Of a stretch of DNA of 64,000 nucleotides, positions 1,439 to 25,711 are shown one piece after another. This DNA is from Aurantibacillus circumpalustris (GTDB taxonomy: Bacteria; Bacteroidota; Bacteroidia; B-17B0; Aurantibacillaceae): contig NZ_CP121197.1 of assembly GCF_029625215.1 (NCBI RefSeq), forward strand, positions 4,526,001-4,590,000. Direction: 5' to 3'. The notes under the pieces are model-generated. The model was not told the DNA's origin. It saw nothing but the letters and a program-made list of their open reading frames with translations, and ran no database searches. The translations under genes and the position numbers were made by a program. Every line of letters begins with the position of its first letter. The stretch's first letter is position 1.

Positions 1439-2341
1439 ATGTCTAACAAGAGCAAGTGGGAAGGGAAAACCAGAGGCGGGCTAAGTGGGCATAAAATTTT
1501 TGTATTTATTCTCAATACATTCGGGCTACACATTGCATATTTTTTCTTGCGATTTGTAGCTTTTTATTTTTTTTTATTTAGTAAATCCACTAAAACCTCA
1601 CTAAACTATTTTAGGAAAATTCACGGCTACAAAGGTTTAAAGGCCTACGGAGCCACTTATCAAAATTATTTTTTATTCGGCCAGATTTTATTGGATAAAG
1701 TGGCTCTTCTTTCAGGCGTAAAAACCAACTTCACAATAAATCACGATGGTCACAATGAAAACCTCGCTAATCTCAAAAGCTCCGGCAAAGGCAGTATTTT
1801 GCTTAGCGCCCACATTGGTAATTGGGAAATTGCCGGTCAAATGCTTGATTCGCTGAACACCAAATTTAATGTCCTCATGTACGACAATGAGGTAGAGAAA
1901 ATGAAGGAATACATGAGTCGTGTGATGGGTAAAAAAAGTTTTAATGTGATTGCAATACGTGATGGTGATATGGGGCACTTGGTAGAATTACACAAAGCAT
2001 TCGCTAACAATGAGCTTGTGGTGATGCACGGTGATCGATACCTGCCAGGAACTGCTACCATTGAAAAAAACTTTATGGGTAAACTCGCAAAATTTCCCGC
2101 AGGACCTTTTGTAATGGCCGCTAAATTCGGTGTTCCAATCACCTTAGTTTTCGCAGTAAAAGAAACAAAAAATCACTACCATTTTTTTGCCCGCAAACCC
2201 ATTGAAGTCAAAAGAGCACGCACTAAAGAAGATACCGACTTAGTTGTAAAAAATAGTTCTGATCAATATGTCCGCGAACTGGAATTCATGCTAAAAAAGT
2301 ATCCAACTCAATGGTTTAACTTTTATGATTTTTGGAAATAG
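1439..2341 (+). CDS. LpxL/HtrB-like acyltransferase
   Basis: A 300-residue member of the lysophospholipid/lipid A acyltransferase family (LpxL/HtrB-like), normally inner-membrane enzymes that move an acyl group from ACP to a lipid hydroxyl. A hydrophobic N-terminal segment (about residues 20-45) is followed by the HxxxxE catalytic motif in SAHIGNWEIAG (about residues 122-132) and a downstream HGDRYLPG block. It directly follows an ACP gene, so it probably uses an ACP-bound substrate from this locus. Joining the aryl polyene to a lipid or to the dialkylresorcinol is possible, but the acceptor cannot be read from sequence. It ends the first transcription block; a promoter-like site follows at 2402-2432. 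Confidence 0.85.
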   Translation: MSNKSKWEGKTRGGLSGHKIFVFILNTFGLHIAYFFLRFVAFYFFLFSKSTKTSLNYFRKIHGYKGLKAYGATYQNYFLFGQILLDKVALLSGVKTNFTINHDGHNENLANLKSSGKGSILLSAHIGNWEIAGQMLDSLNTKFNVLMYDNEVEKMKEYMSRVMGKKSFNVIAIRDGDMGHLVELHKAFANNELVVMHGDRYLPGTATIEKNFMGKLAKFPAGPFVMAAKFGVPITLVFAVKETKNHYHFFARKPIEVKRARTKEDTDLVVKNSSDQYVRELEFMLKKYPTQWFNFYDFWK

Positions 2342-3831: not shown

Positions 3832-4977
3832 ATGTCTTTTAAACCAGTTTATATTACCAATACTTCCTCGTTTTTTCCAAACGATCCTATTTCGAATGAT
3901 GAGATGGAGGAATACTTAGGTTACCTTAACAACACCCCCTCTCGATCAAAAGGAATTGTATTACGTAACAACGGAATTAAACGTCGTTTCTACGCCCTTA
4001 CAAAAGGAGGAAAAATTACGCATACCAACGCACAAATGACTGCGCTTGCCGTTAGAGCTCTCTTCAAAAATCCTGAGGGCTTAAAATCATTTCAACTTTT
4101 AAGTTGTGGTACTTCTTCTCCCGATCAACTAATGCCTTCGCACGCCGCCATGGTGCACGGTTGGCTACCTGAAACAAATTCCATTGAAGTGGTTTCTTCA
4201 GCAGGTGTTTGCTGCGCTGGAATGCATGCATTAAAATATGCTTACATGTCGGTTAAGACTGGAGAATCTGAAACTGCAGTAGCAGCAGGCTCTGATAGAA
4301 TTTCTGCTTCCATCGTTTCTAATAATTTTGAAGATGAAATTCAAAAATTAAAAGAACTTTCTGATGATCCTTATATTGGTTTCGAAAAAGAATTTTTACG
4401 CTGGATGCTCTCTGACGGTGCATCTGCTTTTTTACTCACAGACAAACCAAATGAAACAGGCATTAGTTTAAAAATTGAATGGATAGAAGGTTTTTCATAT
4501 GCCAACGAATTGCAAGCATGTATGTATATGGGCGCAGACAAAAACGAAGATGGCACCATTACAAGTTATTTAGATTATACGCCACAAGAAATGGTAAACA
4601 AATCCATTTTCACCATTAAGCAAGATGTAAAATTATTAAGTAAAAACATTGTCACATTAGGTGGCGTAGGCCTTAAAAAGGTTTTAGCAAAACACAAATT
4701 CGATTCAAACGACATCAATTATTTTTTACCGCATTTATCGAGCGAGTTTTTTAAAGATAAAGTTTACAACCAACTGATAGAAAACGGCACACCAATTCCT
4801 TACGAAAAGTGGTTTATTAATTTACCAACCGTAGGTAATGTTGGTGCGGCCTCAGCTTATTTAATGGTAGACGAATTATTTAAAAGTGGTAAATTAAAAA
4901 AAGGAGAAAAAATTTTATTACTTGTTCCCGAGAGCGGAAGATTTTCTTACATGTACACTTTGTTTACCGTTTGTTAG
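3832..4977 (+). CDS. darB: DarB-like ketosynthase III (dialkylresorcinol synthesis)
   Basis: A 381-residue KAS III (FabH-like) enzyme. DarB-type enzymes condense two acyl units and cyclise them to a 2,5-dialkylcyclohexane-1,3-dione, which DarA aromatises. The catalytic residues are visible: Cys127/Cys128 in SAGVCCAGM (the second Cys aligns with the FabH nucleophile), His in YFLPHLSSEFF and Asn in PTVGNVGAAS. It is longer than a housekeeping FabH (about 320 residues), as is usual for specialised members. It follows darA after 3 bp and precedes an unknown gene by 9 bp. An alternative reading as a generic FabH is less likely given the darA neighbour. Confidence 0.85.
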   Translation: MSFKPVYITNTSSFFPNDPISNDEMEEYLGYLNNTPSRSKGIVLRNNGIKRRFYALTKGGKITHTNAQMTALAVRALFKNPEGLKSFQLLSCGTSSPDQLMPSHAAMVHGWLPETNSIEVVSSAGVCCAGMHALKYAYMSVKTGESETAVAAGSDRISASIVSNNFEDEIQKLKELSDDPYIGFEKEFLRWMLSDGASAFLLTDKPNETGISLKIEWIEGFSYANELQACMYMGADKNEDGTITSYLDYTPQEMVNKSIFTIKQDVKLLSKNIVTLGGVGLKKVLAKHKFDSNDINYFLPHLSSEFFKDKVYNQLIENGTPIPYEKWFINLPTVGNVGAASAYLMVDELFKSGKLKKGEKILLLVPESGRFSYMYTLFTVC

Positions 4978-4986
4978 AATTGAATA

Positions 4987-5394
4987 ATGAAAAAAGAAGA
5001 TATTCCACAAGATAAAAGTGCACTCGACAAATTCACCAAAGAATTGTGTTATGCTGTGGATAGTTCTGGCAACTATGTTACTGGCCTCAGCAGAGGTTGG
5101 GATGTAAAAGCAACAGCCCTTGATTTAACCTGGCAGGATATTGACAAACGAATAGCAGAAGTAAAACAAAAAGTACTGAACAAAGAAGCTAGTCCCCTAC
5201 TCTTTTTCTTGGAACTGCGTTTAATGGATTTAACCATACTTGCAGCTTACTCAGGTTTTTGGCAATGGCAAATAAAAAGACACATGAAACCAGAAGTCTT
5301 CGAAAAATTATCAAAAAGAAAATTAGAAAAATACGCCAAAGCATTTAATGTTAGTGTTGAGCAATTAAAAACAATGAACGTAAATGCAGAATGA
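4987..5394 (+). CDS. Protein of unknown function between darB and the BtrH-like gene
   Basis: A 135-residue protein with no signal peptide and no motif I can name. Residues about 70-95 (PLLFFLELRLMDLTILAAYSGFW) form a hydrophobic helix, and the C-terminal part is basic and helical (SKRKLEKYAKAFNVS). It looks like an all-helical, possibly membrane-associated accessory protein. Its stop overlaps the start of the BtrH-like gene (ATG at 5384), which points to translational coupling and a shared task with that enzyme. Confidence 0.8.
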   Translation: MKKEDIPQDKSALDKFTKELCYAVDSSGNYVTGLSRGWDVKATALDLTWQDIDKRIAEVKQKVLNKEASPLLFFLELRLMDLTILAAYSGFWQWQIKRHMKPEVFEKLSKRKLEKYAKAFNVSVEQLKTMNVNAE

Positions 5395-6391
5395 ATTTAA
5401 ACACCTTCAAGCAGCGCACTGCGAAAACGGAGTAACTACCAACCTGCTTAAAAACATTGGCGTTACCATTACTGAACCGCTAGCGTTTGGGATTGGCTCT
5501 GGACTATTTTACATCTACATTCCTTTTTTAAAAATAAATAATGGTCCCGCAATTGCTTTTAGAACCATGCCAGGAAATATTTTTAAACGTACTTGCAAAA
5601 GTTTAGGAATACCGGTAGTTCGGAAAAAATTCAGCTCCGAAAAAGACGCAGAAAAATTTTTAATGGAATGCGTTGCCGCTAAGCAGCCGGTAGGTTGCCA
5701 GGTAGGTGTTTATTATCTGACTTACTTTCCAAAAGAATACCGTTTTCATTTTAACGCACATAATTTAATTGTGTACGGAAAAGAAGGCGATAATTTTTTA
5801 ATCAGTGATCCGGTAATGGAGGATGTTACCACGCTTAGCAGTTTTGAATTAGAACGCGTGCGTTTTGCGAAAGGACCATTTGCTCCTAAAGGACAATTGT
5901 ATTATCCAAAAGAACACACACAAGTAACAGAAGAACAATTAAAAAAAGCCATTGTAAAAGGAATTAAACTCAACGTGCGCGATATGCTTCATATACCAGG
6001 AAACATTGCAGGCGTAAAAGGAATTCGTTATACCGCTAACAAAATTAAAAAGTGGCGCGACACACTCGGTCTTGAAAAAGCGGGTTTATACCTTGCGCAA
6101 TTGGTGCGTATGCAAGAAGAAATTGGAACCGGCGGCGGCGGCTTTAGATATATTTACGGCGCTTTTTTACAACAGGCACAAGCCTATCATCCGAACGCTC
6201 CTTTAATGGATCTTTCTAAAAAATTTACACAATCAGGAGATCTTTGGCGCAGTGCTGCCGTGCAAGCTTCCGGAATTTATAAAGGGAGAATTACTGCACA
6301 ACAAGATTTTAATGTGATGGCGGATTATTTATTCGAAATTGCAGAATTAGAAAAACAAGCTTTTACATCGCTTTCAAAAATAAAATGGTAA
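5384..6391 (+). CDS. BtrH-like papain-fold acyltransferase (BtrH_N plus DUF4872 type)
   Basis: A 335-residue protein. The N-terminal half (residues 1-150) matches the BtrH N-terminal domain: Cys13 in AAHCENG, His126 in NAHNLIVYG and Asp142 in LISDPV, laid out like a C39/papain triad. The C-terminal half fits the DUF4872 region. BtrH in butirosin synthesis moves an acyl group from an ACP to an acceptor. Between darB and an ABC exporter in a locus rich in ACPs, this is a good candidate for the step that joins the aryl-polyenoyl-ACP to the dialkylresorcinol. That role is inference; the family call is fairly strong. Confidence 0.82.
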   Translation: MQNEFKHLQAAHCENGVTTNLLKNIGVTITEPLAFGIGSGLFYIYIPFLKINNGPAIAFRTMPGNIFKRTCKSLGIPVVRKKFSSEKDAEKFLMECVAAKQPVGCQVGVYYLTYFPKEYRFHFNAHNLIVYGKEGDNFLISDPVMEDVTTLSSFELERVRFAKGPFAPKGQLYYPKEHTQVTEEQLKKAIVKGIKLNVRDMLHIPGNIAGVKGIRYTANKIKKWRDTLGLEKAGLYLAQLVRMQEEIGTGGGGFRYIYGAFLQQAQAYHPNAPLMDLSKKFTQSGDLWRSAAVQASGIYKGRITAQQDFNVMADYLFEIAELEKQAFTSLSKIKW

Positions 6392-7147
6392 ATGAACATT
6401 CAGGCTGTAGACATACAAGAACTGGATTTTACTTACACAAATCCTTACCACAAATGTTTTAGTGGACTTAACTTACAAATAAATAAAGGCGATCGCTTTG
6501 GTTTGTTTGGCCCTAATGGCGCGGGAAAAACAACGCTCATGAGTTGTATGACGGGGCTTCTTTCTTTCAATAGCGGATCAATTCACCTTTTAGGAATAGA
6601 CTTAAAAAAAAACCCGAAAGAAGTTAAAAAACTGATTGGTTTTGTCCCACAAGACCTTGCCTTCTATCAAGAATTAAGTCCGAAAGAAAACTTCGAATAC
6701 TTTGGAGCACTTTCAGGAATGGATAAACAGAGCATTAAAACCAGATCCCTTGAGTTGCTTGATATTCTCGGCTTAACAGAAATGAAAGATAAAGCTGTTC
6801 ACACGTTTTCAGGAGGCATGAAACGTAAAGTGAATCTTGCAATTGGCGTGATGCATAATCCTTCTTTATTGTTTTTAGATGAACCTACTGTGGGTGTGGA
6901 TATTCAAACCCGTCACATTATTATTAATTTTTTGAAAGAATTAAATGCAGCCGGAACAACGCTTGTATACACCTCACACCAATTGAGCGAAGCGCAAGAA
7001 CTTTGCACCAACATTGCATTGATCTATGAAGGAAAAATAATTGAGCACGATACACTTGAAAATTTATTTCAAAAACATAAAGAAAAAAGTCTGGAAGGTT
7101 TGTTTATAAAACTAACTGGGAAAAATTATCAGGAAGTGGATGTTTAA
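6392..7147 (+). CDS. ABC-2 type exporter, ATP-binding subunit
   Basis: A 251-residue ABC ATPase with every expected motif: Walker A GPNGAGKTT (about residues 40-48), signature FSGGMKRK, Walker B LLFLDEPTVGVD and the switch His in YTSHQ. It belongs to the CcmA/DrrA-like drug and lipid export group. It starts directly after the stop of the BtrH-like gene and overlaps the permease by 8 bp, so the two subunits are made together. Export of flexirubin, its precursor or a lipid carrier is the likely job; the substrate cannot be read from sequence. Confidence 0.93.
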   Translation: MNIQAVDIQELDFTYTNPYHKCFSGLNLQINKGDRFGLFGPNGAGKTTLMSCMTGLLSFNSGSIHLLGIDLKKNPKEVKKLIGFVPQDLAFYQELSPKENFEYFGALSGMDKQSIKTRSLELLDILGLTEMKDKAVHTFSGGMKRKVNLAIGVMHNPSLLFLDEPTVGVDIQTRHIIINFLKELNAAGTTLVYTSHQLSEAQELCTNIALIYEGKIIEHDTLENLFQKHKEKSLEGLFIKLTGKNYQEVDV

Positions 7148-8420
7148 ATTGTGGACAAGCATACAAAAAGACGTTCGTTTATTAACGCGCGACAAAGTAG
7201 GTTTACTACTCATGTTTGCCATGCCCATTGTACTGGCTATTTTAATCGCAGCCATTCAAAACAACACCTTTAAATTGGTTAACGACAATAAAGTTGGTTT
7301 GCTTATTTACAATAACGATACCAGCAAAATTTCCAATCAATTTGTCACAGCCATTAGAGAAGCTGGCATGTTTGAGGTTTCAGAGCTTAGTAAACAATCA
7401 AACGAAAAAGAACTTGCTTTAGAAATGGAAAAACAGGATGCACTTGTGAGCATTGTTATTCCTGAAAACTTTTCTTTTAAAGTAGAAAAAAAATCGAAAG
7501 TCCTCAGCGCCCTGGTTTTTAACGATCTTGGTTTAGGTACAGACACTTTAAATAAAAGCGCGGGTCCTGTTGATTCTGTCGCAATTTATTTTAATCCGGT
7601 GTTGCAAGAATCTTTCCGTCAATCGATTGGCGGAGCTGTTAGAGCTTCATTGCAATTAATAGAAAACAAACAATTGATAAAAAACTTGTATGCCCTCGTT
7701 GATGAAAACAAATTGCCATCAAAGTTGGAAGACGATATTCTTAAAAGTCAGATTCCCATCCAAGAACTAACTGCTGCGCGCAACGGTAGTAAAATTATTC
7801 CAAATGCGACGCAACATAATATTCCGGCATGGACTGTTTTTGCTATGTTTTTCATCGTTATTTCTTTAGGAAGTAATATCGTGAAAGAAAAACTTAACGG
7901 CAGTTTCGTGCGTTTAAAAACATTGCCGACAAATTATTTAATCTCACTTTTATCAAAACAAATCACCTACCTAAGTGTTACACTGTTGCAAGTGGCCGTT
8001 ATTTTTACTTTAGGAATTTATTTATTCCCCGCGATGGGTTTACCGAAACTAAATTTACCATCCGATTTATTTGCGCTCTTCGTTGTTTCTTTTATTTGCG
8101 GTTGGTGTGCGGTGAGTTACGCTATTTGTATTGGTGTATTTGCAAACACGCAAGAACAAGCCAACGGTTTTGGCGCGGTGACTATTGTGATTCTTGCCGC
8201 CATTGGTGGGTTGCTGGTTCCTTCGTTTGCCATGCCAGATTCGTTTAGAATTCCGATGAAATTATCACCACTACACTGGTGTCTGGAGGCCTATTATGGA
8301 TTATTTTTAGAAGACGGAAAATTAAAAGATATTCTAATGAATATTATACCTTTATTGGGAATTACATTTTTACTTCAGCTCATTTCGCTCTGGGGTTTAA
8401 AAAGAAAAAATTTGATTTAA
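7140..8420 (+). CDS. ABC-2 type exporter, permease subunit
   Basis: A 426-residue ABC-2 permease. One transmembrane helix lies near the N-terminus (about residues 22-40), followed by a long extracytoplasmic region, then five or so helices between about residues 230 and 420, as in the ABC2_membrane_3 group. It overlaps the ATPase gene by 8 bp (ATGTTTAA), a classic coupled pair. An ACP gene follows after 6 bp, which keeps the exporter inside the pigment operon. Confidence 0.92.
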   Translation: MFKLWTSIQKDVRLLTRDKVGLLLMFAMPIVLAILIAAIQNNTFKLVNDNKVGLLIYNNDTSKISNQFVTAIREAGMFEVSELSKQSNEKELALEMEKQDALVSIVIPENFSFKVEKKSKVLSALVFNDLGLGTDTLNKSAGPVDSVAIYFNPVLQESFRQSIGGAVRASLQLIENKQLIKNLYALVDENKLPSKLEDDILKSQIPIQELTAARNGSKIIPNATQHNIPAWTVFAMFFIVISLGSNIVKEKLNGSFVRLKTLPTNYLISLLSKQITYLSVTLLQVAVIFTLGIYLFPAMGLPKLNLPSDLFALFVVSFICGWCAVSYAICIGVFANTQEQANGFGAVTIVILAAIGGLLVPSFAMPDSFRIPMKLSPLHWCLEAYYGLFLEDGKLKDILMNIIPLLGITFLLQLISLWGLKRKNLI

Positions 8421-8426
8421 ATACAT

Positions 8427-8690
8427 ATGGAAACAACTGCCTTAAAAGAAGAAATAAAAACAAAGATGATTGAATTCTTAAATCTTTCACCAATGACACC
8501 GGCTGAGATTAAAGACGATGCGCCTTTGTTTGGCGAGGGATTAGGATTAGATTCGATCGATTCTCTTGAATTAATTGTGATGCTAAAAAGAGAATATGGA
8601 ATCGATATTCAAGATCCAAAAGAAGGCCGTAAAATATTGGTGAACATAGACACCATGGCCGACTATATTCAAAAACATAGAACCGTTTGA
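8427..8690 (+). CDS. Acyl carrier protein (module 1)
   Basis: An 87-residue ACP. The phosphopantetheine Ser43 lies in GLGLDSIDSLELIV. It is very similar to the ACP at 15671 (same GLGLDSIDxLELIV site, same DAPLFG / EAPLFG lead-in), and both are followed by a FabF-type ketosynthase and a chain-length-factor-like protein. The two ACP-ketosynthase-CLF blocks therefore look like a duplication. The gap to the next gene is 10 bp. Confidence 0.94.
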   Translation: METTALKEEIKTKMIEFLNLSPMTPAEIKDDAPLFGEGLGLDSIDSLELIVMLKREYGIDIQDPKEGRKILVNIDTMADYIQKHRTV

Positions 8691-8700
8691 GTTTAAATTA

Positions 8701-9891
8701 GTGAGCAGAATCTTCATTACAGGTATTGGCGTTATCAGTCCCATTGGAAACACGGTTTCTGAAAACCGTGCTGCTCTTATTGCTGGTAAATGTGGGATGA
8801 CAAAGCTCGAAATGCTTACATCCAATTTCGCAGACAAAATGCCTTTTGGTGAAGTGAAAATTTCAACAGAAGATTTCAAAAAAAAACTAAACATTTCTGA
8901 ACCAAGTGTTACACGCACAAGTTTATTAGCGCTTCATGCTTTGAAAGAAGCCTTGCACAATGCATCACTTTCGGAAAATGAAATCACATCTCAAGACACT
9001 GCTCTAATTGGCGCTAGCACAGTTGGCGGTATGTGTCTAACCGATGAAATGTATAAAGATGCGAATTTACAAACAGAAGGTTCGCCATATCTTTCTTCCT
9101 ACGATTTTGCTTCGGTAATTTTATTTCTACAACAACATTATAAGGTAAACGGCATTGTAAATACCATTAACACTGCTTGTTCTTCTTCAGCCAACGCGAT
9201 TATGTATGGCGCACGTCTTATGAAACAAGGTTTGGCAAAAAGAGCGATTGTTGGTGGTGTTGATAGTCTTTCTAAGTTTACCATCAACGGATTTAACTCT
9301 CTTGGAATTCTTTCAAACGAAATCTGTCAACCTTTTGATGAAAACCGCAAAGGACTGAATTTAGGTGAAGGTGCGGCTTTTCTTGTTTTAGAAAAAGAAG
9401 AAGATTGTGCCAGAAAAGAAATTTTCGCAGAGCTTAGTGGTTATTTTAATTCCAACGATGCCTTTCATCCGTCCTCTCTTTCAGACGAAGGAAACGGTCC
9501 GTATTTAGCCATGGAAGGCGCTTTGAAAAGTGCCAACTTAAAAGCTTCACAAATTGATTTTATAAATGCACACGGAACAGGCACAGGAAATAACGATGCA
9601 GTGGAAAGTCGAGCCATGCAAAGATTATTTTTAGATGGTGTGCCAGATTTTGCTTCTACCAAATCAAACATTGGTCATACGCTTGGAGCGGCTGGTGCTA
9701 TTGAAGCGGTTTACAGTATTCTCAATTTAAAATATCAAGAGGTATATGCCGGTTTAAATTTTAAAACACCAATTCCTGAAACGGGACTTATTCCTGTATC
9801 AAGCTATTCAAAAAAAGAAATGAAACATGTACTTTCTAATTCTTTTGGTTTTGGTGGTAATTGTAGTTCCTTATTATTTTCAAAAGTGTAA
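8701..9891 (+). CDS. FabF-type beta-ketoacyl-ACP synthase (module 1)
   Basis: A complete 396-residue KAS II enzyme. The start is GTG at 8701, which gives the standard ITGIGVISPIG N-terminus. Catalytic residues are Cys160 in NTACSSSAN, His in NAHGTGTGNND and His in SNIGHTLGAAG. The next gene starts inside its stop codon (TAATG at 9888-9892). The partner encoded next lacks the catalytic residues, as in KS-CLF heterodimers of type II polyketide and aryl-polyene systems. It is the same length as, and clearly paralogous to, the ketosynthase at 15953. Confidence 0.94.
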   Translation: MSRIFITGIGVISPIGNTVSENRAALIAGKCGMTKLEMLTSNFADKMPFGEVKISTEDFKKKLNISEPSVTRTSLLALHALKEALHNASLSENEITSQDTALIGASTVGGMCLTDEMYKDANLQTEGSPYLSSYDFASVILFLQQHYKVNGIVNTINTACSSSANAIMYGARLMKQGLAKRAIVGGVDSLSKFTINGFNSLGILSNEICQPFDENRKGLNLGEGAAFLVLEKEEDCARKEIFAELSGYFNSNDAFHPSSLSDEGNGPYLAMEGALKSANLKASQIDFINAHGTGTGNNDAVESRAMQRLFLDGVPDFASTKSNIGHTLGAAGAIEAVYSILNLKYQEVYAGLNFKTPIPETGLIPVSSYSKKEMKHVLSNSFGFGGNCSSLLFSKV

Positions 9892-10928
9892 TGTTGTTTA
9901 TTCATAAAATAGCGTGTATTTCTCCTCAACAAACTTTTTCGACTGTTGCGATTGATGCGTTAAACGAATCAGTAGAAAATAAATTAAAAGTCATTGAACC
10001 TTCCTATGAAGGAATTCCCAATAATATTTTAAGACGTATGGGCAAAGCGGTGAAAATGACAGTTGGCGCAGCGCTTCCACTTCTTGAAAATGCAAAGGCT
10101 TTAGATGGAATTATTATCGGAACTGCAAATGGCGGCATGGAAGATTGTATTAAATTCATGAATCAAATTATGGAGTATGATGAAGGCTTGCTCACACCCG
10201 GTAATTTTGTTCAAAGCACGCCGAATGGACTCGCTGCTCAAATTGGTTTATTGAAAAAAAACAATGGTTACAACATCACGCATGTGCATCGCGGACTTTC
10301 TTTTGAAAACGCTGTTATTGATGCAGCGATGATGCTAAACGATTTTCCTGAAAATAATTATTTGCTCGGTGCGGCGGATGAAATATCCAGTTATAATTAC
10401 AATGTAGATTTTTTAGGAGGTTGGTACAAAAAAGAAACTGTTTCTAACAAGAATCTTTACACCCTTGATTCTCCCGCTAGTATAGCTGGTGAAGGCGCGG
10501 TAATGTGTATCGTCAATTCAAAAAAAGAAGGCGCACTTGGTCAACTTAAAGCTATTCACACCGTACATAGTGAAGATAAACAGTATGTAATGCAGGAATT
10601 AAAAGCATTTCTTGCGCAACATTTAAAAAATGAAAGTCCTGATATTTTAATTAGCGGTGAAAACGGTGACAATCGTTTTTTACCTTATTACGAAGCCGCA
10701 GAAAAACTAGTCGATAAAACAACAAACATTTTACGCTTTAAACACATGAGTGGTGAGTATCCAACGGCATCTTCGCATGCGCTTTGGCTTGCCTTGCACA
10801 TTCTACAAACCGGCTCTTTTCCTAATCATTGTGTAAAACGAAAATCTGAAAATAGGTCGTTCGAAAATATTTTAATCTATAATAATTACAAAGGTGCGCA
10901 GCATAGTTTTATGTTGGTATCCAGGTAA
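9891..10928 (+). CDS. Chain-length-factor-like ketosynthase homologue without catalytic Cys (module 1)
   Basis: A 345-residue thiolase-fold protein resembling the 'beta-ketoacyl synthase, chain length factor' family (PF13723-like). The stretch HVHRGLSFENA stands where an active ketosynthase has its Cys, and the two His motifs are replaced by SGENGD and SGEYPTASS, so it should not condense by itself. It starts in the stop codon of the active ketosynthase, the usual arrangement for a heterodimer. The paralogue at 17145 shows the same features. It would set polyene chain length or stabilise the partner; this is inferred from aryl-polyene systems. Confidence 0.85.
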   Translation: MLFIHKIACISPQQTFSTVAIDALNESVENKLKVIEPSYEGIPNNILRRMGKAVKMTVGAALPLLENAKALDGIIIGTANGGMEDCIKFMNQIMEYDEGLLTPGNFVQSTPNGLAAQIGLLKKNNGYNITHVHRGLSFENAVIDAAMMLNDFPENNYLLGAADEISSYNYNVDFLGGWYKKETVSNKNLYTLDSPASIAGEGAVMCIVNSKKEGALGQLKAIHTVHSEDKQYVMQELKAFLAQHLKNESPDILISGENGDNRFLPYYEAAEKLVDKTTNILRFKHMSGEYPTASSHALWLALHILQTGSFPNHCVKRKSENRSFENILIYNNYKGAQHSFMLVSR

Positions 10929-11079: not shown

Positions 11080-11603
11080 CGTCACTGCGAGGAACGAAGC
11101 AGTCTCTGCCAAGTGCTACCTGGCAGAGATTCCTTCGGGTTTATTCTTAACACGCGTTTGCCTCGGAATGACGGTGCTACCTGAAAAACGTCACTGCGAG
11201 TAATGTGGGTGATTGCAGAGAAACCGAAGCAGTCTCTGCCAAGTGCTACAATGCACATGGACTTTGAGGAGTTGTAATACCACGCAGAGATTCCTTCGGG
11301 TTTATTCTTAACACGCGTTTGCCTCGGAATGACGGTGCTACCTGAAAAACGTCACTGCGAGTAATGTGGGTGATTGCAGAGAAACCGAAGCAGTCTCTGC
11401 CAAGTGCTACAATGCACATGGACTTTGAGGAGTTGTAATACCACGCAGAGATTCCTTCGGGTTTATTCTTAACACGCGTTTGCCTCGGAATGACGGTGCT
11501 TCTGTGAACCCGTCACTGCGAGTAAAACGGATGATTGCAATGAAACCGAAGCAGTCTCTGCAAAGTGTCACCTTACGCAAGGGCCTCGACGGGACTTTCG
11601 TAA
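11080..11603. repeat. Tandem array of a palindromic element (161-bp unit)
   Basis: Four copies begin with CGTCACTGCGAG at 11080, 11189, 11350 and 11511. Copies 2 and 3 are each 161 bp and are identical over about their first 150 bases; copy 1 is a shorter 109-bp form; copy 4 degenerates after about 60 bases. Within a copy the left end (CGTCACTGCGAGG, CGAAGCAGTCTCTG) pairs with the right end (CAGAGATTCCTTCG, CCTCGGAATGACG), so each copy can fold into a long imperfect hairpin. This resembles a palindromic interspersed repeat common in many bacterial genomes. No transposase is present, and the open frames across it are by-products of the repeat. Confidence 0.9.
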
Positions 11604-11605
11604 AC

Positions 11606-12898
11606 CTACCGCGCTGCCACAAACCGTTTACTTAGAACCCCTGCATTAACACTTTTAATCCTTAAAAAATAAACCCCATTCTCAAGCTCACTTGTTTTAA
11701 AAAGAAGTTTATTTTCGGTAAACGAAATCTCTTCTTCCCTGATCAACTGACCAAGGTTGTTATAAATAGAAATCACTTTTGAATCTTTTGTCAAATCGGC
11801 GTTTGAAATTTTAAGTTCTAAATAATCGTTTGCTGGATTTGGAAACACCATCAATTTATCATTTAACATCTCTAATCCGATAGCTATCGGATCAACATTT
11901 CCAACGGGGTTCATCGCAATTATTACCGTATCCCATTTTACGTGACCGCAAATATCTTGTCTTACAACATAAGTACAACTTGTTACAGGTTTTATCCAAA
12001 AACCTGCAATGGTATCAATGGCCGGTGTTGTGGGTGTAATAACTGTTGGTAATTGATACCACATACAAGCTTCATCAATCCCAACATCTGATTCCCGACC
12101 AAGGTAAACACTATCCCCCGGAATTACCGCCGCGTCATTACCAGCAAAGGCTGGTAGATCAATATCGATGCAACTTACATCGTCAATACAGTAATCTGTA
12201 AAAATTTGAGGCAACGTTGTTGAGTTCACAAAAACATTATGCGTGTTCGCATTGTTTCTAAAGTTTCCAATAATTATATATTTTTCATTACCAATTGCCG
12301 TATACAAACCTTGGAATAGCATCCAGTTTAAAGTATCTGAAAGAAACATGCTATCAGGACTTTGAATTTGCGGAGTTAAGTAGGTTATGGGAGTTGCACA
12401 ATACTTAATTGTATCGTTCGTGGCATCCGAAAAATAAACTCCCATTCGATCTATTGAATAAGAAGATTTATTAGTTAAATTCAGGTACATCGTGAAGCAA
12501 TAGGTTTTGCCTGCTGTCAAAACTTGCTTTAAATTATTTCTTGGATATCCGCGCACGTTTGACGCACATGAGGGGCAGTAAAATGTACTCGCCAAAAAAT
12601 TATTTCCGTGTCTTGGCCATTGATAGGTCTGTGAACTGAGCGGCACAATAAAAGGGGGTAGATTTTTAGCAAACAACTTTCCGAAAAATTTTGTACCAGT
12701 TGTATCCATAGCATTCCAGAATTTCGGTATTGGTGGGCTTACGCCTTGAACAGCCTCTTAAAAGCCGCCATCCTTAACATAATTAGCAATCTGCGCCTTC
12801 ACGTCAAAACTTATATTCAAAACAAAAAATAAAAACAAAAAGATTCTAAAGTACCTGTTTGAGTTAGATCTTAAAGTTTTTTGTTGAAAATAATTCAT
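11606..12898 (-). pseudogene. T9SS type A cargo protein gene with an in-frame stop after the signal peptide
   Basis: Translated from the ATG at 12898-12896, the frame gives a signal peptide of about 36 residues (a basic start MNYFQQKTLR, a Phe/Leu-rich core and an end in VKAQ), then NYVKDGGF, then TAA at 12760-12758. It continues in the same frame as EAVQGVSPPIPKFWNAMDTT and on to the end. The rest (367 residues from the Met at 12709) is open. It finishes in a T9SS type A sorting domain: VFPNPANDYLEL, then NNLGQLI, then a beta-rich tail ending FVAAR. The intact gene would encode a secreted surface protein of unknown function. With the stop, export is lost unless there is read-through or a sequencing error. 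It lies antisense to, and inside, the pigment locus. Confidence 0.85.
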
Positions 12899-17144: not shown

Positions 17145-18206
17145 ATGGAAGCTTACATTAATTCCTTAGCCTGCATTTCTCCACACAATACCATTAGTGC
17201 AGATTTCTTTTTTGAGGAAACAAGTGAAACACCTACTTCTAATTTTTTAGCCATTGTACCGCCAGTTTACAAAGATTACATTCCAGTTAATACCATTCGC
17301 CGTACTTCACACATTTTAAAAATGGGTATCAGCGCCGGTTTAATGTGTTTGAGAAATAGTGGAAAAGAAGAAACCGACGCCATAATTGTGGGAACAGCAA
17401 TGGGTTGTTACGAGGATACTGATAAATTTTTACGTTCGATTGATGATAATAACGAACGAATGCTTACCCCAACTTCTTTTATACAATCAACACACAATAC
17501 TGTAGCTGGACAAATTGCATTGCTTGTAAAATGCCACGGTTATAATTTTACCTATGTTCATCAAAATTTATCCTTTGAGTATTCTTTGCTTGATGCGCTG
17601 CTTTTACTGAAAGAAGGTGAGGCACAAACCGTTTTAGTAGGTGGAGTTGACGAATTAAATCCTCCTCTCAAAGAATTATTTGAAAGAGCAGGACACATAA
17701 AAAAAGTGGAAGACCTCCAGGAAAAATTGTGGGAAAGCAAAACAAAAGGTTATGTAGCAGGCGAAGGTGCTTGTTTTTTTAATTTGAGTCTGACTAAACA
17801 AGAAAAAAGTATCGCGAAAATAAGTGGGGTAAAAACCATTCAAAAAATTTCAGATTCAGATCAGCTTAAAAACATTACAGAATCATTTTTAAAAGAACTC
17901 GGCCTTTCTATAAACGATATTAGTCTTGTATTAAGCGGCATAAATGGCAATGTGGAAACTGATAAACATTTAAAACAATTTTCTACTGAAATCAATTTAC
18001 CACTTGCTTACTTTAAAAATTTGTGTGGAGAATATTTCACATGCAGTTCTTTTGCGCTTTGGTTTTCAGCAACTATTCTACAAAAACAAAAAGTTCCGAC
18101 TTGCGCTCTTCCTTCAAAAAATTCTCCTGAAAACATAAAACATATTCTTATTGTAAACTACTTTGCAGATCAGCAGTATTCACTGATGTGTATTTCACAA
18201 TGCTAA
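17145..18206 (+). CDS. Chain-length-factor-like ketosynthase homologue without catalytic Cys (module 2)
   Basis: A 353-residue paralogue of the protein at 9891. It starts with the same kind of short N-terminus (INSLACISPHNT against IHKIACISPQQT). It has YVHQNLSFEYS in place of the Cys loop and LSGINGNVE / LCGEYFTCSS in place of the His motifs. It should be the inactive partner of the ketosynthase at 15953. It overlaps the polysaccharide deacetylase gene by 7 bp. Confidence 0.85.
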   Translation: MEAYINSLACISPHNTISADFFFEETSETPTSNFLAIVPPVYKDYIPVNTIRRTSHILKMGISAGLMCLRNSGKEETDAIIVGTAMGCYEDTDKFLRSIDDNNERMLTPTSFIQSTHNTVAGQIALLVKCHGYNFTYVHQNLSFEYSLLDALLLLKEGEAQTVLVGGVDELNPPLKELFERAGHIKKVEDLQEKLWESKTKGYVAGEGACFFNLSLTKQEKSIAKISGVKTIQKISDSDQLKNITESFLKELGLSINDISLVLSGINGNVETDKHLKQFSTEINLPLAYFKNLCGEYFTCSSFALWFSATILQKQKVPTCALPSKNSPENIKHILIVNYFADQQYSLMCISQC

Positions 18207-21859: not shown

Positions 21860-24800
21860 ATGCTGGCATTGCGTTTATATACCTTTTTTCAACGCCATAA
21901 AACACTTTTGTTTGCATTGGTTGTAATTCTGCTGATTTTTTTCGGCTATTTCAGTACCAAACTTAAACGTGAAGAGGACATCACCAAATTCATTCCAAAA
22001 GATGGAAAAATTGACGAGATCAACTTTATTCTTCAAAATCTTAAAATCAAAGACAAACTTGTTATTAATCTGTTTAATGCGGACACAAGTGTAAATGATC
22101 CATCAGAAATGATGGCCTGCGCCGATAAACTTGCAGACACCCTTTTGAACACAAATAAAGACTTCATTAAAGAATTAAATTATAAAGTGTCCAATGAGTT
22201 GATGATGCAAACTTATGGCACTTTTTATGAAAATCTACCCATCTTTTTAGAGGAAAAAGATTATCAAAAAATTGAAGGCTTATTAATAAGAGACAGCGTT
22301 AATAGCACCTTAAAATCAGATTACAGAACGCTCCTCTCTCCTTCAGGAATGGTCCTTGGACGTTATCTTAAACGCGATCCTTTAAATTTAACGCCAATTG
22401 CCTTAAAGAAAATACAAAGCTTGCAGTTTGACGAGAACTTTGAAGTCAACGAAGGATACATTCAAACAAAGGACAAAAAAAATCTTTTGCTTTTTATTAC
22501 ACCTTCTGTTAATCCCAATGAATCTGACGCCAACAAAAAATTCATTGAGTCTCTTGATGGAACAATAAATAACCTTAGCAAACAATTTGACGGTAAAGTT
22601 ACGATTGAGTATTACGGAGCAACTCCTGTAGCAGCTGGTAACGCAGCTCAAATACGCCACGACAGTATTTTCACCTCGCTCATCGCTTTGGCTGTTATCA
22701 TGCTTATGCTCTTTCTCTTTTTTAGAAGGCTGCTTGTTATACTATACATTTTGTTGCCTGTAGCTTTTGGCGGACTATTCTCTTTAACACTTCTGTATTT
22801 TATTAAAGGTGAAATTTCAGCCATTGCTCTTGGAGCAGGCTCCATTGTGCTCGGTATCGCCATTAATTATTCTCTTCATTTTTTTACGCATTACAAACAC
22901 GAGCGTTCGGTAAAAAAAGTAATTGAAGATCTCACCTTACCAATGCTTGTTGGTTGCGCGACTACTGTTGCTGCTTTCTTAAGTCTACAGTTTGCAAAGT
23001 CACAAGCCCTGCATGATTTTGGACTCTTTGCAGGATTTAGTTTGATTGGCGCCGTACTTTTCTCAATCATTGTTTTACCGCATCTACTTAAATCAAAAAA
23101 AGAAAGTCAAGAAGAAAATCACGATGCCAAGCCTTCCATTATTGATAAAGCTTTGTCTTACCCAATGGACAAAAATAAATCCATTGTAATTCTTGCTTTT
23201 CTGCTTACGCTTGTGTTCGCTTATACCGCCAGTTATGTTGAGTTTGAAAGTGACATGATGAAAATGAATTATCAGTCAGACAAACTGAATAAGGCACAAG
23301 AGAACATTGAACGCATTAACAAATATTCTTTAAAATCTGTTTACGTTATTTCGAAAGGAAAAAATTTAAACGAAGCTTTGAAAGCGAATGAAAGAGCTTC
23401 TGAAAAATTATCGCAATTAAAAAAAGATGGAAGCGTAGGAAAATATTCTTCAGTTAGCACTGTGCTAATTTCAGATTCCCTTCAAAAAATTCGTATTGAT
23501 AGGTGGAATGATTTTTGGACCAAGGCAAGAAAAGATTCACTAAGAAATAATCTCATTCAATTTGGTTCTGGTTATAAATTTAAAGAAGATGCCTTTTCAG
23601 AGTTCTATAATCTGCTTAATAAAGATTTTAAAGTAATTCCTTTATCACACTTAGATAGTCTTAAAAAACTTGTTGCCAACGAATGGATAACTGAGAACAA
23701 AGATCTTACCACCATTGTAAATTTGGTTAAATCAGACCCAGAAACAAAACAAAAAGTTTATGATGCTTTTTCAGGTGTGAGTGATGTATTGGTCTTCGAC
23801 AAACAATACATGACCAATCAGTTTGTGGAAATTATCAGTTCAGATTTTAATTTAATTCTGATGATAACCGCTTTCCTGGTTTTTGGATTCATGTTATTAT
23901 CACATGGAAGAATTGAATTAGCAATCATTAATTTTATTCCAATGTTTGTTAGTTGGCTGTGGATTCTAGGAATAATGGGGATTCTAGGGCTAAAGTTTAA
24001 CATCATTAATATCATCATCTCCACCTTTATTTTTGGTTTAGGCGACGATTATAGCATTTTTATAATGGATGGTCTAGGTCACGAGTATAAATACGGCCGA
24101 AAAAATTTAGCCTCGTATAAAACATCCATTTTTCTTTCTGCTCTTACTAACATTGTGGGGATTGGTGTATTGATTTTTGCTAAACACCCAGCTTTAAAAT
24201 CCATCGCAGCCATTACCATTATTGGTATGTGCACGGTTTTATTTATTTCATTTATTATCCAACCACTCTTTTATAATTTCCTGATTCTAAATCGCAGAAA
24301 AAGAGGTTTATTGCCATATACACTTTTTAATTTGTTGATTACAGGTCTTGGCTTCTCAATATTTGTAGCGGGAAGTATTGTTACGCATTCCTTTGCTTTT
24401 TTATTGTTCCACATCATTCCGGCGCCACGAAAGAAAAAGAAACTCTTGTTTCATTACATCATCATGTACGTTTGCCGTATCATGGTTTACCTTGTTGCCA
24501 ACGTTAAAAAAAACATCATCAATCCAGATAAAGAAAAATTCAAAAAACCATCCATTATAATCAGTAATCATCAATCGCACATCGATCTCGCGCTTATCCT
24601 TATGCTACATCCAAAAATTGTGGTATTCACCAACGATGCCGTTTGGAATAATCCTTTTTATGGTGTTATTGTAAGGATGGCAGACTTTTATCCAGCGTCA
24701 CGTGGTTACGAAAATGCTTTAACTCAAATGAAAGAACTTACCAATGATGGATATTCTGTATTGATCTTCCCCGAAGGTACGCGTTCGCAGAGTGGTGAGA

Positions 24801-25711
24801 TTTTGCGCTTTCATAAAGGAGCTTTTTATCTTGCCGAACAACTACAATTAGAAATCCTACCTCTGCTGTTGCACGGAGCTGGAGACTTAGTAACCAAAGG
24901 AGATTTTCATTTTAAAGAAGGTGAAGTAACACTGAAATATTTCCCTAGAATCTTGCCTAATGATACTGCGTTTGGATCAGCATATAAAGAGAAGTCTAAA
25001 AATGTTCGTGAGTACATGCGCAGTGAGTATGCTCAGCTACGTTTAGAAAAAGAAACCGTTAACTATTTCAGACCAAGATTAATAAAAAATTACATTTATA
25101 AAGGTCCTATTTTAGAATGGTATTGCCGTATTAAAACAAAACTGGAAGGTAATTATGAAAACTTCGAAAAGTACCTTCCTAAAAAAGGAAAGATTATTGA
25201 CGTCGGTTGCGGTTATGGGTTTCTATCACTCATGCTTGGTTTTATGAGCAAGGATCGTGAAATACTTGGCTTAGATTACGACGATGAAAAAATAAACATC
25301 GCTTCAAACTGCGTTTCAAAAAATTCGAAAACCAATTTTATTCATGCCGACGTAACCCAATATGAGTTTGTCGAGGCTGATGCTTTTATCATAAATGACG
25401 TGCTTCATTATCTTGAGCCAGAACAACAGATTAATCTCATAAAAAGTTGTGTAAATAAATTAAACAAAAACGGGGTTATGATTGTTCGTGATGCAGATGC
25501 GGATAAAAAGAAACGACACATGGGCACTCGCTATACCGAATTTTTCTCTACTAATTCGGGCTTTAACAAAACGAAAGAAAGTGGTTTACATTTTACTTCA
25601 GCCGATTTAATTAAAAACACGCTTAATAGCTTTAACTTTATTGAATATAAACTTATAGATGATACAACACTAACTTCAAATGTTACGTTTGTAATTCATT
25701 ACAAAAATTAA
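21860..25711 (+). CDS. Trifunctional MMPL transporter / lysophospholipid acyltransferase / SAM methyltransferase
   Basis: A 1283-residue fusion. Residues 1 to about 840 form an RND/MMPL exporter: helix at 13-32, periplasmic loop, helices at about 270-410, a second loop, and helices at about 660-850. Residues about 880-1080 are a PlsC-type acyltransferase with NHQSHID (about residue 902) and FPEGTRS (about 970). Residues about 1100-1283 are a class I methyltransferase with the SAM-binding VGCGYGF motif at about residue 1115. This three-domain fusion is a known annotation in Bacteroidota flexirubin loci. The exporter would move an acylated pigment or lipid, with the two enzymes tailoring it in the cytoplasm; substrates are not known from sequence. 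Confidence 0.92.
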   Translation: MLALRLYTFFQRHKTLLFALVVILLIFFGYFSTKLKREEDITKFIPKDGKIDEINFILQNLKIKDKLVINLFNADTSVNDPSEMMACADKLADTLLNTNKDFIKELNYKVSNELMMQTYGTFYENLPIFLEEKDYQKIEGLLIRDSVNSTLKSDYRTLLSPSGMVLGRYLKRDPLNLTPIALKKIQSLQFDENFEVNEGYIQTKDKKNLLLFITPSVNPNESDANKKFIESLDGTINNLSKQFDGKVTIEYYGATPVAAGNAAQIRHDSIFTSLIALAVIMLMLFLFFRRLLVILYILLPVAFGGLFSLTLLYFIKGEISAIALGAGSIVLGIAINYSLHFFTHYKHERSVKKVIEDLTLPMLVGCATTVAAFLSLQFAKSQALHDFGLFAGFSLIGAVLFSIIVLPHLLKSKKESQEENHDAKPSIIDKALSYPMDKNKSIVILAFLLTLVFAYTASYVEFESDMMKMNYQSDKLNKAQENIERINKYSLKSVYVISKGKNLNEALKANERASEKLSQLKKDGSVGKYSSVSTVLISDSLQKIRIDRWNDFWTKARKDSLRNNLIQFGSGYKFKEDAFSEFYNLLNKDFKVIPLSHLDSLKKLVANEWITENKDLTTIVNLVKSDPETKQKVYDAFSGVSDVLVFDKQYMTNQFVEIISSDFNLILMITAFLVFGFMLLSHGRIELAIINFIPMFVSWLWILGIMGILGLKFNIINIIISTFIFGLGDDYSIFIMDGLGHEYKYGRKNLASYKTSIFLSALTNIVGIGVLIFAKHPALKSIAAITIIGMCTVLFISFIIQPLFYNFLILNRRKRGLLPYTLFNLLITGLGFSIFVAGSIVTHSFAFLLFHIIPAPRKKKKLLFHYIIMYVCRIMVYLVANVKKNIINPDKEKFKKPSIIISNHQSHIDLALILMLHPKIVVFTNDAVWNNPFYGVIVRMADFYPASRGYENALTQMKELTNDGYSVLIFPEGTRSQSGEILRFHKGAFYLAEQLQLEILPLLLHGAGDLVTKGDFHFKEGEVTLKYFPRILPNDTAFGSAYKEKSKNVREYMRSEYAQLRLEKETVNYFRPRLIKNYIYKGPILEWYCRIKTKLEGNYENFEKYLPKKGKIIDVGCGYGFLSLMLGFMSKDREILGLDYDDEKINIASNCVSKNSKTNFIHADVTQYEFVEADAFIINDVLHYLEPEQQINLIKSCVNKLNKNGVMIVRDADADKKKRHMGTRYTEFFSTNSGFNKTKESGLHFTSADLIKNTLNSFNFIEYKLIDDTTLTSNVTFVIHYKN

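Follow-up and report, generated by a model that had tools for sequence, protein, structure and literature searches.

The window analysed here is a stretch of 64,000 nucleotides (positions 4,526,001 to 4,590,000 of contig NZ_CP121197.1) from the single-contig genome of Aurantibacillus circumpalustris (4,604,442 bases). It carries genes for both halves of a flexirubin-type pigment, an aryl polyene and a dialkylresorcinol (DAR). The genes concerned were assigned as follows, with coordinates referring to the window.

1439..2341, plus strand: Lip_A_acyltrans protein (PF03279) of the general aryl-polyene set, present also in the polyene-only loci L094, L095, L096 and L103
2929..3828, plus strand: darA, dialkylresorcinol aromatase, assigned because it precedes darB and, among the genomes tested, was found in all DarH-positive ones and in no others
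3832..4977, plus strand: darB, dialkylresorcinol ketosynthase/cyclase (NF053539, 629.5 bits, cut-off 550)
4987..5394, plus strand: darG, small partner gene (NF053545, 193 bits, cut-off 170), product with a predicted C-terminal Cro/C1-type helix-turn-helix fold
5384..6391, plus strand: darH, putative papain-fold acyltransferase with BtrH_N and DUF4872 domains and Cys13, His126 and Asp142
6392..7147, plus strand: ABC transporter ATPase, adjoining darH
7140..8420, plus strand: ABC-2 type permease
8427..8690, plus strand: acyl carrier protein (ACP) of the dar block (PF00550); the cluster has three ACPs in all
8701..9891, plus strand: ketosynthase of the dar block
9891..10928, plus strand: chain-length-factor-like partner of the preceding ketosynthase (PF13723)
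17145..18206, plus strand: aryl-polyene chain-length factor (CLF), used as marker for the polyene half
21860..25711, plus strand: MMPL exporter of the general polyene set, fused on one protein to PlsC acyltransferase and methyltransferase domains, found also in L094-L096 and L103

The darA product gave no match in the Pfam and NCBIfam profile libraries, and its name was borrowed from the darAB literature. Upstream of the window lie genes for a tyrosine ammonia-lyase (TAL), assigned by reading of open frames and by matches in related clusters rather than by library search, and a ketoreductase, followed farther away by the FlxY ligase and a C45 acyltransferase. The set by which a flexirubin cluster was recognized (TAL, FlxY ligase, polyene ketosynthases with CLF, and DarA/DarB) was found complete. 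Flexirubins are described as chemotaxonomic markers of the Bacteroidetes (PMC3992019, PMC3949708). An earlier note had placed darH between darB and the exporter; the exporter genes do follow directly downstream, and the direct upstream neighbour is darG.

Some further features of the region were recorded. Upstream of the window, at 6080-10224 of locus L097 (genome positions 4512579-4516723), three consecutive genes encode the C45 autoproteolytic acyltransferase, FlxY and an acyltransferase of the PlsC type. Within the cluster, positions 11095-11599 hold a tandem array of three 161-base units, of which the third is 80% alike. The array has a short inverted repeat, and sequence similar to the array is found elsewhere in this genome, mostly near 1.142-1.144 Mb. 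Next to it, a minus-strand gene at 11606-12709 breaks the plus-strand run of flexirubin genes, and the C-terminal end of its product resembles, by eye, a type IX secretion sorting domain.

The darH open reading frame starts with ATG and encodes a protein of 335 amino acids. Using Pfam, BtrH_N was found at residues 12-143 (165 bits, cut-off 29.7), followed by DUF4872 at residues 155-330 (195 bits, cut-off 28), which is the BtrH-type domain pair in its BtrH-type order. The NCBIfam equivalog model NF053550, "BtrH-related acyltransferase DarH", matched at 465 bits (cut-off 300) over positions 1-324 of 325. With the curated cut-off exceeded over the full length and dialkylresorcinol genes alongside, darH is a member of a family already named in the database, from which nothing sets the gene of the window apart. 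The model name makes no mention of an ester role.

Of 87 loci with a DarH match, four held paralogues, which were kept separate; the other 83, together with the window protein, gave the 84 orthologues in which conservation was analyzed. The translation has Cys at position 13, His at 126 and Asp at 142, the residues of a papain-like active site. Cys13 is kept in 83/83 orthologues covering it (one further orthologue is truncated) and both His126 and Asp142 in 84/84, which bears out the triad proposed in the earlier note. The three residues also occur in the four distant paralogues, as does a DUF4872 motif (E..GTGG..FR..Y) that is nearly fixed among the orthologues. These paralogues (L086, L087, L088 and L091) are 26-33% identical to DarH, carry a QHCETTATG motif and have no dar genes nearby.

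A structural model of DarH was predicted with AlphaFold2 from an alignment of 30 sequences (pLDDT 88.4, pTM 0.88). Cys13 is located at the start of a helix and His126 within a strand of the predicted model. In a Foldseek comparison with the PDB, CtaG, AziU2-U3 and CcbD came out on top with E-values from 2e-10 to 2e-6, after which a gap followed to 4e-3. Alignment of the model with these three proteins using VIA-align gave Z-scores of 20.4-23.2 over 291-306 residues, covering the full length, whereas C39 peptidase domains reached a Z-score of about 13 and matched the first domain only. The model thus has the two-domain fold of the CtaG/CcbD kind. Sequence searches did not recover these relatives: phmmer with DarH against PDB sequences returned zero matches, and profiles of A1 and A2 hit chiefly designed coiled coils, plus a single C39-like peptidase with a weak score. 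The structural relatives were accordingly found by fold comparison only. The modelling suggested in the earlier note therefore yielded a full-length match to the acyltransferases CtaG and CcbD and to AziU2-U3 (Z 20-23). Its description of a C39-like fold in the BtrH group is upheld for the BtrH_N/DUF4872 pair and the acyltransferase fold, and holds for C39 peptidases in the first domain only.

Comparison with individual systems was most detailed for CtaG from closthioamide biosynthesis, which shares the full-length fold with DarH (Z up to 23.2 over 292-293 residues) at an identity of 11-12%. Titles of its PDB entries name the variants C11A, H128A and D144N, close to Cys13, His126 and Asp142 of DarH, and the spacing of 16 between His and Asp is the same in both. 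CtaG has been proposed to pass 4-hydroxybenzoate between carrier proteins, its proposed acceptor being a carrier-bound amine, unlike the phenol proposed for DarH (PMC6772006). CcbD from celesticetin biosynthesis also has the full-length fold (Z 20.4-20.6). It is described as transferring a carrier-bound acyl group to its own cysteine and then to an amine in a ping-pong reaction, and differs from DarH in its amine acceptor and its Cys-His-Glu triad (PMC12945683). AziU2-U3 from azinomycin biosynthesis (full-length fold, Z 21.0-21.2) acts in another pathway.

BtrH from butirosin biosynthesis, which forms an amide on an aminoglycoside, shares the two-domain family with DarH, as judged from Pfam models. 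PMC10318531 calls it an ACP:aminoglycoside acyltransferase, one domain of which is close to C39; its acceptor is not of the kind proposed for DarH. By description and gene setting, darH was likened to darE of Azoarcus sp. BH72, which is listed as a BtrH-like peptidase in Table 1 of PMC3949708. Like darH, darE lies in a dar locus, beside darD and an ABC ATPase, in a producer of a polyene-DAR hybrid; it differs in its Betaproteobacterial host and the xanthomonadin-type polyene. That source assigns the hybrid as an ester by mass spectrometry and reports the dar locus to be unlinked from the polyene loci (PMC3949708).

The darG and darH genes overlap by 11 bases. Among the genomes tested, DarG was found in 34/34 DarH-positive and 0/17 DarH-negative ones. 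Its model (pLDDT 81, pTM 0.60) is weaker in the N-terminal part; in the C-terminal half, the predicted structure resembles Cro/C1-type helix-turn-helix domains (Z about 10 over about 63 residues). DarG is likely a partner of DarH. The solved structure of AziU2-U3 contains two proteins bound to each other, and a similar pairing is suspected for DarG and DarH, the likeness concerning the complex as such and not a resemblance of DarG to either chain.

Gene order was compared in 80 related loci, obtained by a scan of genome contigs (best-segment identity 60-83%). In 78 of these, which are all the loci with room for it, darG immediately precedes darH in the same orientation; the other two start too near darH. 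DarB was matched in 77 of the 80 loci, two of the remaining three being cut at the locus start, and DarA in 76; among the loci with room, L049 alone lacks both genes. No ABC homologue was found in the approximately 10 kb downstream of darH in L049, L054 and L057. In L092 and L093, the ACP, ketosynthase and CLF of the dar block were not found beside the ABC genes.

Distribution was determined in two overlapping samples of Bacteroidota, one of 392 genomes and one of 179 genomes from a single family at nearly one per genus; the sampled genomes are related by ancestry, so the counts are of non-independent events. In the larger sample, DarH was above the cut-off in 33 genomes, DarB (NF005293) in 34 (the same 33 plus G238) and the polyene CLF of the window cluster in 36 (the same 33 plus G238, G118 and G373). 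Of 39 genomes examined for DarA, the 33 with DarH all had it and the other six did not. The DarB-like gene of G238 stands in an unrelated setting; this genome also has polyene genes, and it lacks DarH, DarA and DarG. In the one-family sample, 31 genomes were positive for DarH and 30 for DarB (NF053539), the latter all within the former; in the remaining one, G423, the end of a contig truncates DarB. The CLF was found in 42 of these 179 genomes, comprising all 31 with DarH and 11 with neither DarH nor DarB above the cut-off.

Taking both samples together, DarH occurs in 58 distinct genomes, each of which also has DarB and the aryl-polyene CLF (58/58), and all 13 polyene-positive genomes lacking DarH also lack the complete DAR pair. 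This co-occurrence persists where the genes are apart. In G017, DarA-DarB and DarG-DarH are on different contigs, and in G410 DarH lies about 53 kb away from DarB and DarG. No genome with DarA and DarB but lacking polyene genes was seen in the two Bacteroidota samples (392 and 179 genomes), so distribution alone cannot separate a step in DAR formation from the joining step. DAR-only producers occur outside the Bacteroidota, for example in Pseudomonas and Photorhabdus. Such producers receive mention in PMC9606717.

Paralogues below the cut-off were not counted as DarH (G158, G269, G210, G265, G526 and G419). A weak DarH match with five stops in G433 was absent on re-search with the window protein and was set aside. 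DarB-like domains in open frames of 616-675 amino acids were observed away from dar loci in L084, L083, L082 and L104 and as the second DarB of G534. Such a separate gene is present in G254, G276 and G407, where DarH is absent.

Family, fold, conserved triad and strict co-occurrence with the DAR and polyene genes were all computed for DarH. The C. pinensis genes darB and darA are reported to produce the DAR of flexirubin in a heterologous host (PMC3992019). As these two suffice, DarH is dispensable for building the DAR, and because DarH is missing from polyene-only genomes, building of the polyene does not need it either. What is left is the joining of the two halves, or a need that arises with the joined pigment only, such as its export. 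The acyltransferase fold and the conserved active site favour joining; as a point against this role, DarH keeps company with DarG and usually with the ABC exporter too. DarH is the best candidate for the enzyme that joins the halves of flexirubin, and it is probably a BtrH/CcbD-type papain-fold acyltransferase that forms the ester bond.

We infer that DarH would act catalytically on a carrier-protein donor and a DAR acceptor, with DarG as partner. In the proposed mechanism, the aryl-polyene acyl group would be brought by an acyl carrier protein and accepted by Cys13, activated by His126 with Asp142 as orienting residue, giving an acyl-enzyme thioester. His126 would next deprotonate a phenolic hydroxyl on the dialkylresorcinol supplied by DarA and DarB; this hydroxyl would attack the thioester, and the ester would be released. 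The cluster has three ACP genes; carrier-dependent acyl transfer by DarH is a prediction from its relatives. Those whose reaction has been reported or proposed (BtrH, CcbD, CtaG) make amides, and a phenol ester would be an extrapolation from them. The view of the earlier note, a BtrH-like candidate for ester formation, is thus carried by the BtrH-type acyltransferase assignment, the triad and an occurrence that tracks DAR and polyene genes in combination, and is tempered by these amide-making relatives.

The ester could instead be made by another enzyme of the cluster, with DarH serving a different DAR-linked step. The 1439 acyltransferase, the PlsC domain at 21860-25711, the upstream C45 (AAT) protein and a ligase are all acyl-transferring or ligase proteins near the cluster, and the ligase-like FlxW was proposed for the joining step in 2014 (PMC3992019). 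The 1439 and MMPL-PlsC proteins, however, were found in each of the four polyene-only loci inspected (L094-L096 and L103, L096 coming from G238, the genome with the lone DarB-like gene) and are therefore not DAR-specific, which also weakens the earlier note's alternative of the acyltransferase at 1439. The E. coli aryl-polyene acyltransferases ApeD and ApeJ have been proposed to link the polyene to a lipid anchor (PMC8253772), and ApeD would correspond to the 1439 protein. The C45 protein occurs in 31/33 DarH-positive genomes but also in two of the three polyene-positive, DarH-negative genomes tested; its gene is mostly, not always, retained alongside polyene genes. FlxW was not identified here and stays a candidate; the one ligase detected across the window and 20 kb of sequence before it was FlxY (NF053551), which is present in 36/36 polyene-positive genomes tested. 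None of the four (1439, MMPL-PlsC, C45, FlxY) tracks the DAR genes in its distribution. A shared enzyme could nevertheless act on different acceptors, and we consider this explanation unlikely, though the strongest of the rivals.

Transfer between carrier proteins, or release of the polyene from its ACP by thioesterase action, with the ester formed later, would agree with the proposed transfer of an acyl group by CtaG to a carrier-bound acceptor (PMC6772006) and with the dar block having its own ACP and ketosynthase. But a thioesterase-like gene is present in the polyene-only loci, where DarH is absent, so polyene release does not need DarH, and the dar-block genes were not found next to the ABC genes in the two loci noted above; such a function is judged improbable. 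A contribution of DarH to making or delivering DAR, for instance by supplying acyl chains to DarB, would fit its strict co-occurrence with DarA and DarB and is more improbable still, given that DAR was obtained from darB and darA in a heterologous host (PMC3992019) and from the Azoarcus DAR proteins in E. coli (PMC3949708). A C39-type leader peptidase serving the neighbouring ABC exporter has the least to recommend it and is very improbable. C39 domains of ABC exporters do match the N-terminal domain of DarH (Z about 13) and ABC transporter genes follow downstream, but the full-length matches, second domain included, are to acyltransferase-type proteins (Z 20-23). Exporter peptidases of this type have an N-terminal peptidase domain fused to the ABC transporter, whereas DarH is a stand-alone protein of 335 amino acids with DUF4872 and the ABC proteins are separate open reading frames. 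This option was rejected on fold coverage and on the three loci lacking an ABC homologue within about 10 kb.

In the open-access literature, to which the search was confined, no experiment on DarH and no assignment of the ester step to DarH was found. New here are the finding that DarH is so strictly distributed, its match in fold to acyltransferases that depend on a carrier protein, and the lower standing now given to the other acyltransferases. We would go further only tentatively, and with the odds against it: DarH may be the first member of an amide-making family to acylate a phenol oxygen, forming an ester, and may form an obligate pair with DarG, whose helix-turn-helix would have been co-opted as an enzyme partner and would not be a DNA-binding regulator.

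So far, the enzyme that joins the two halves of flexirubin has been only a guess, FlxW, in the account given by PMC3992019; the present comparison points to one gene and one cysteine. Should DarH prove to form the ester, phenol esters would be added to the amides for which its family is known, and DarH would be a useful genome-mining marker to tell flexirubin-type from polyene-only clusters.
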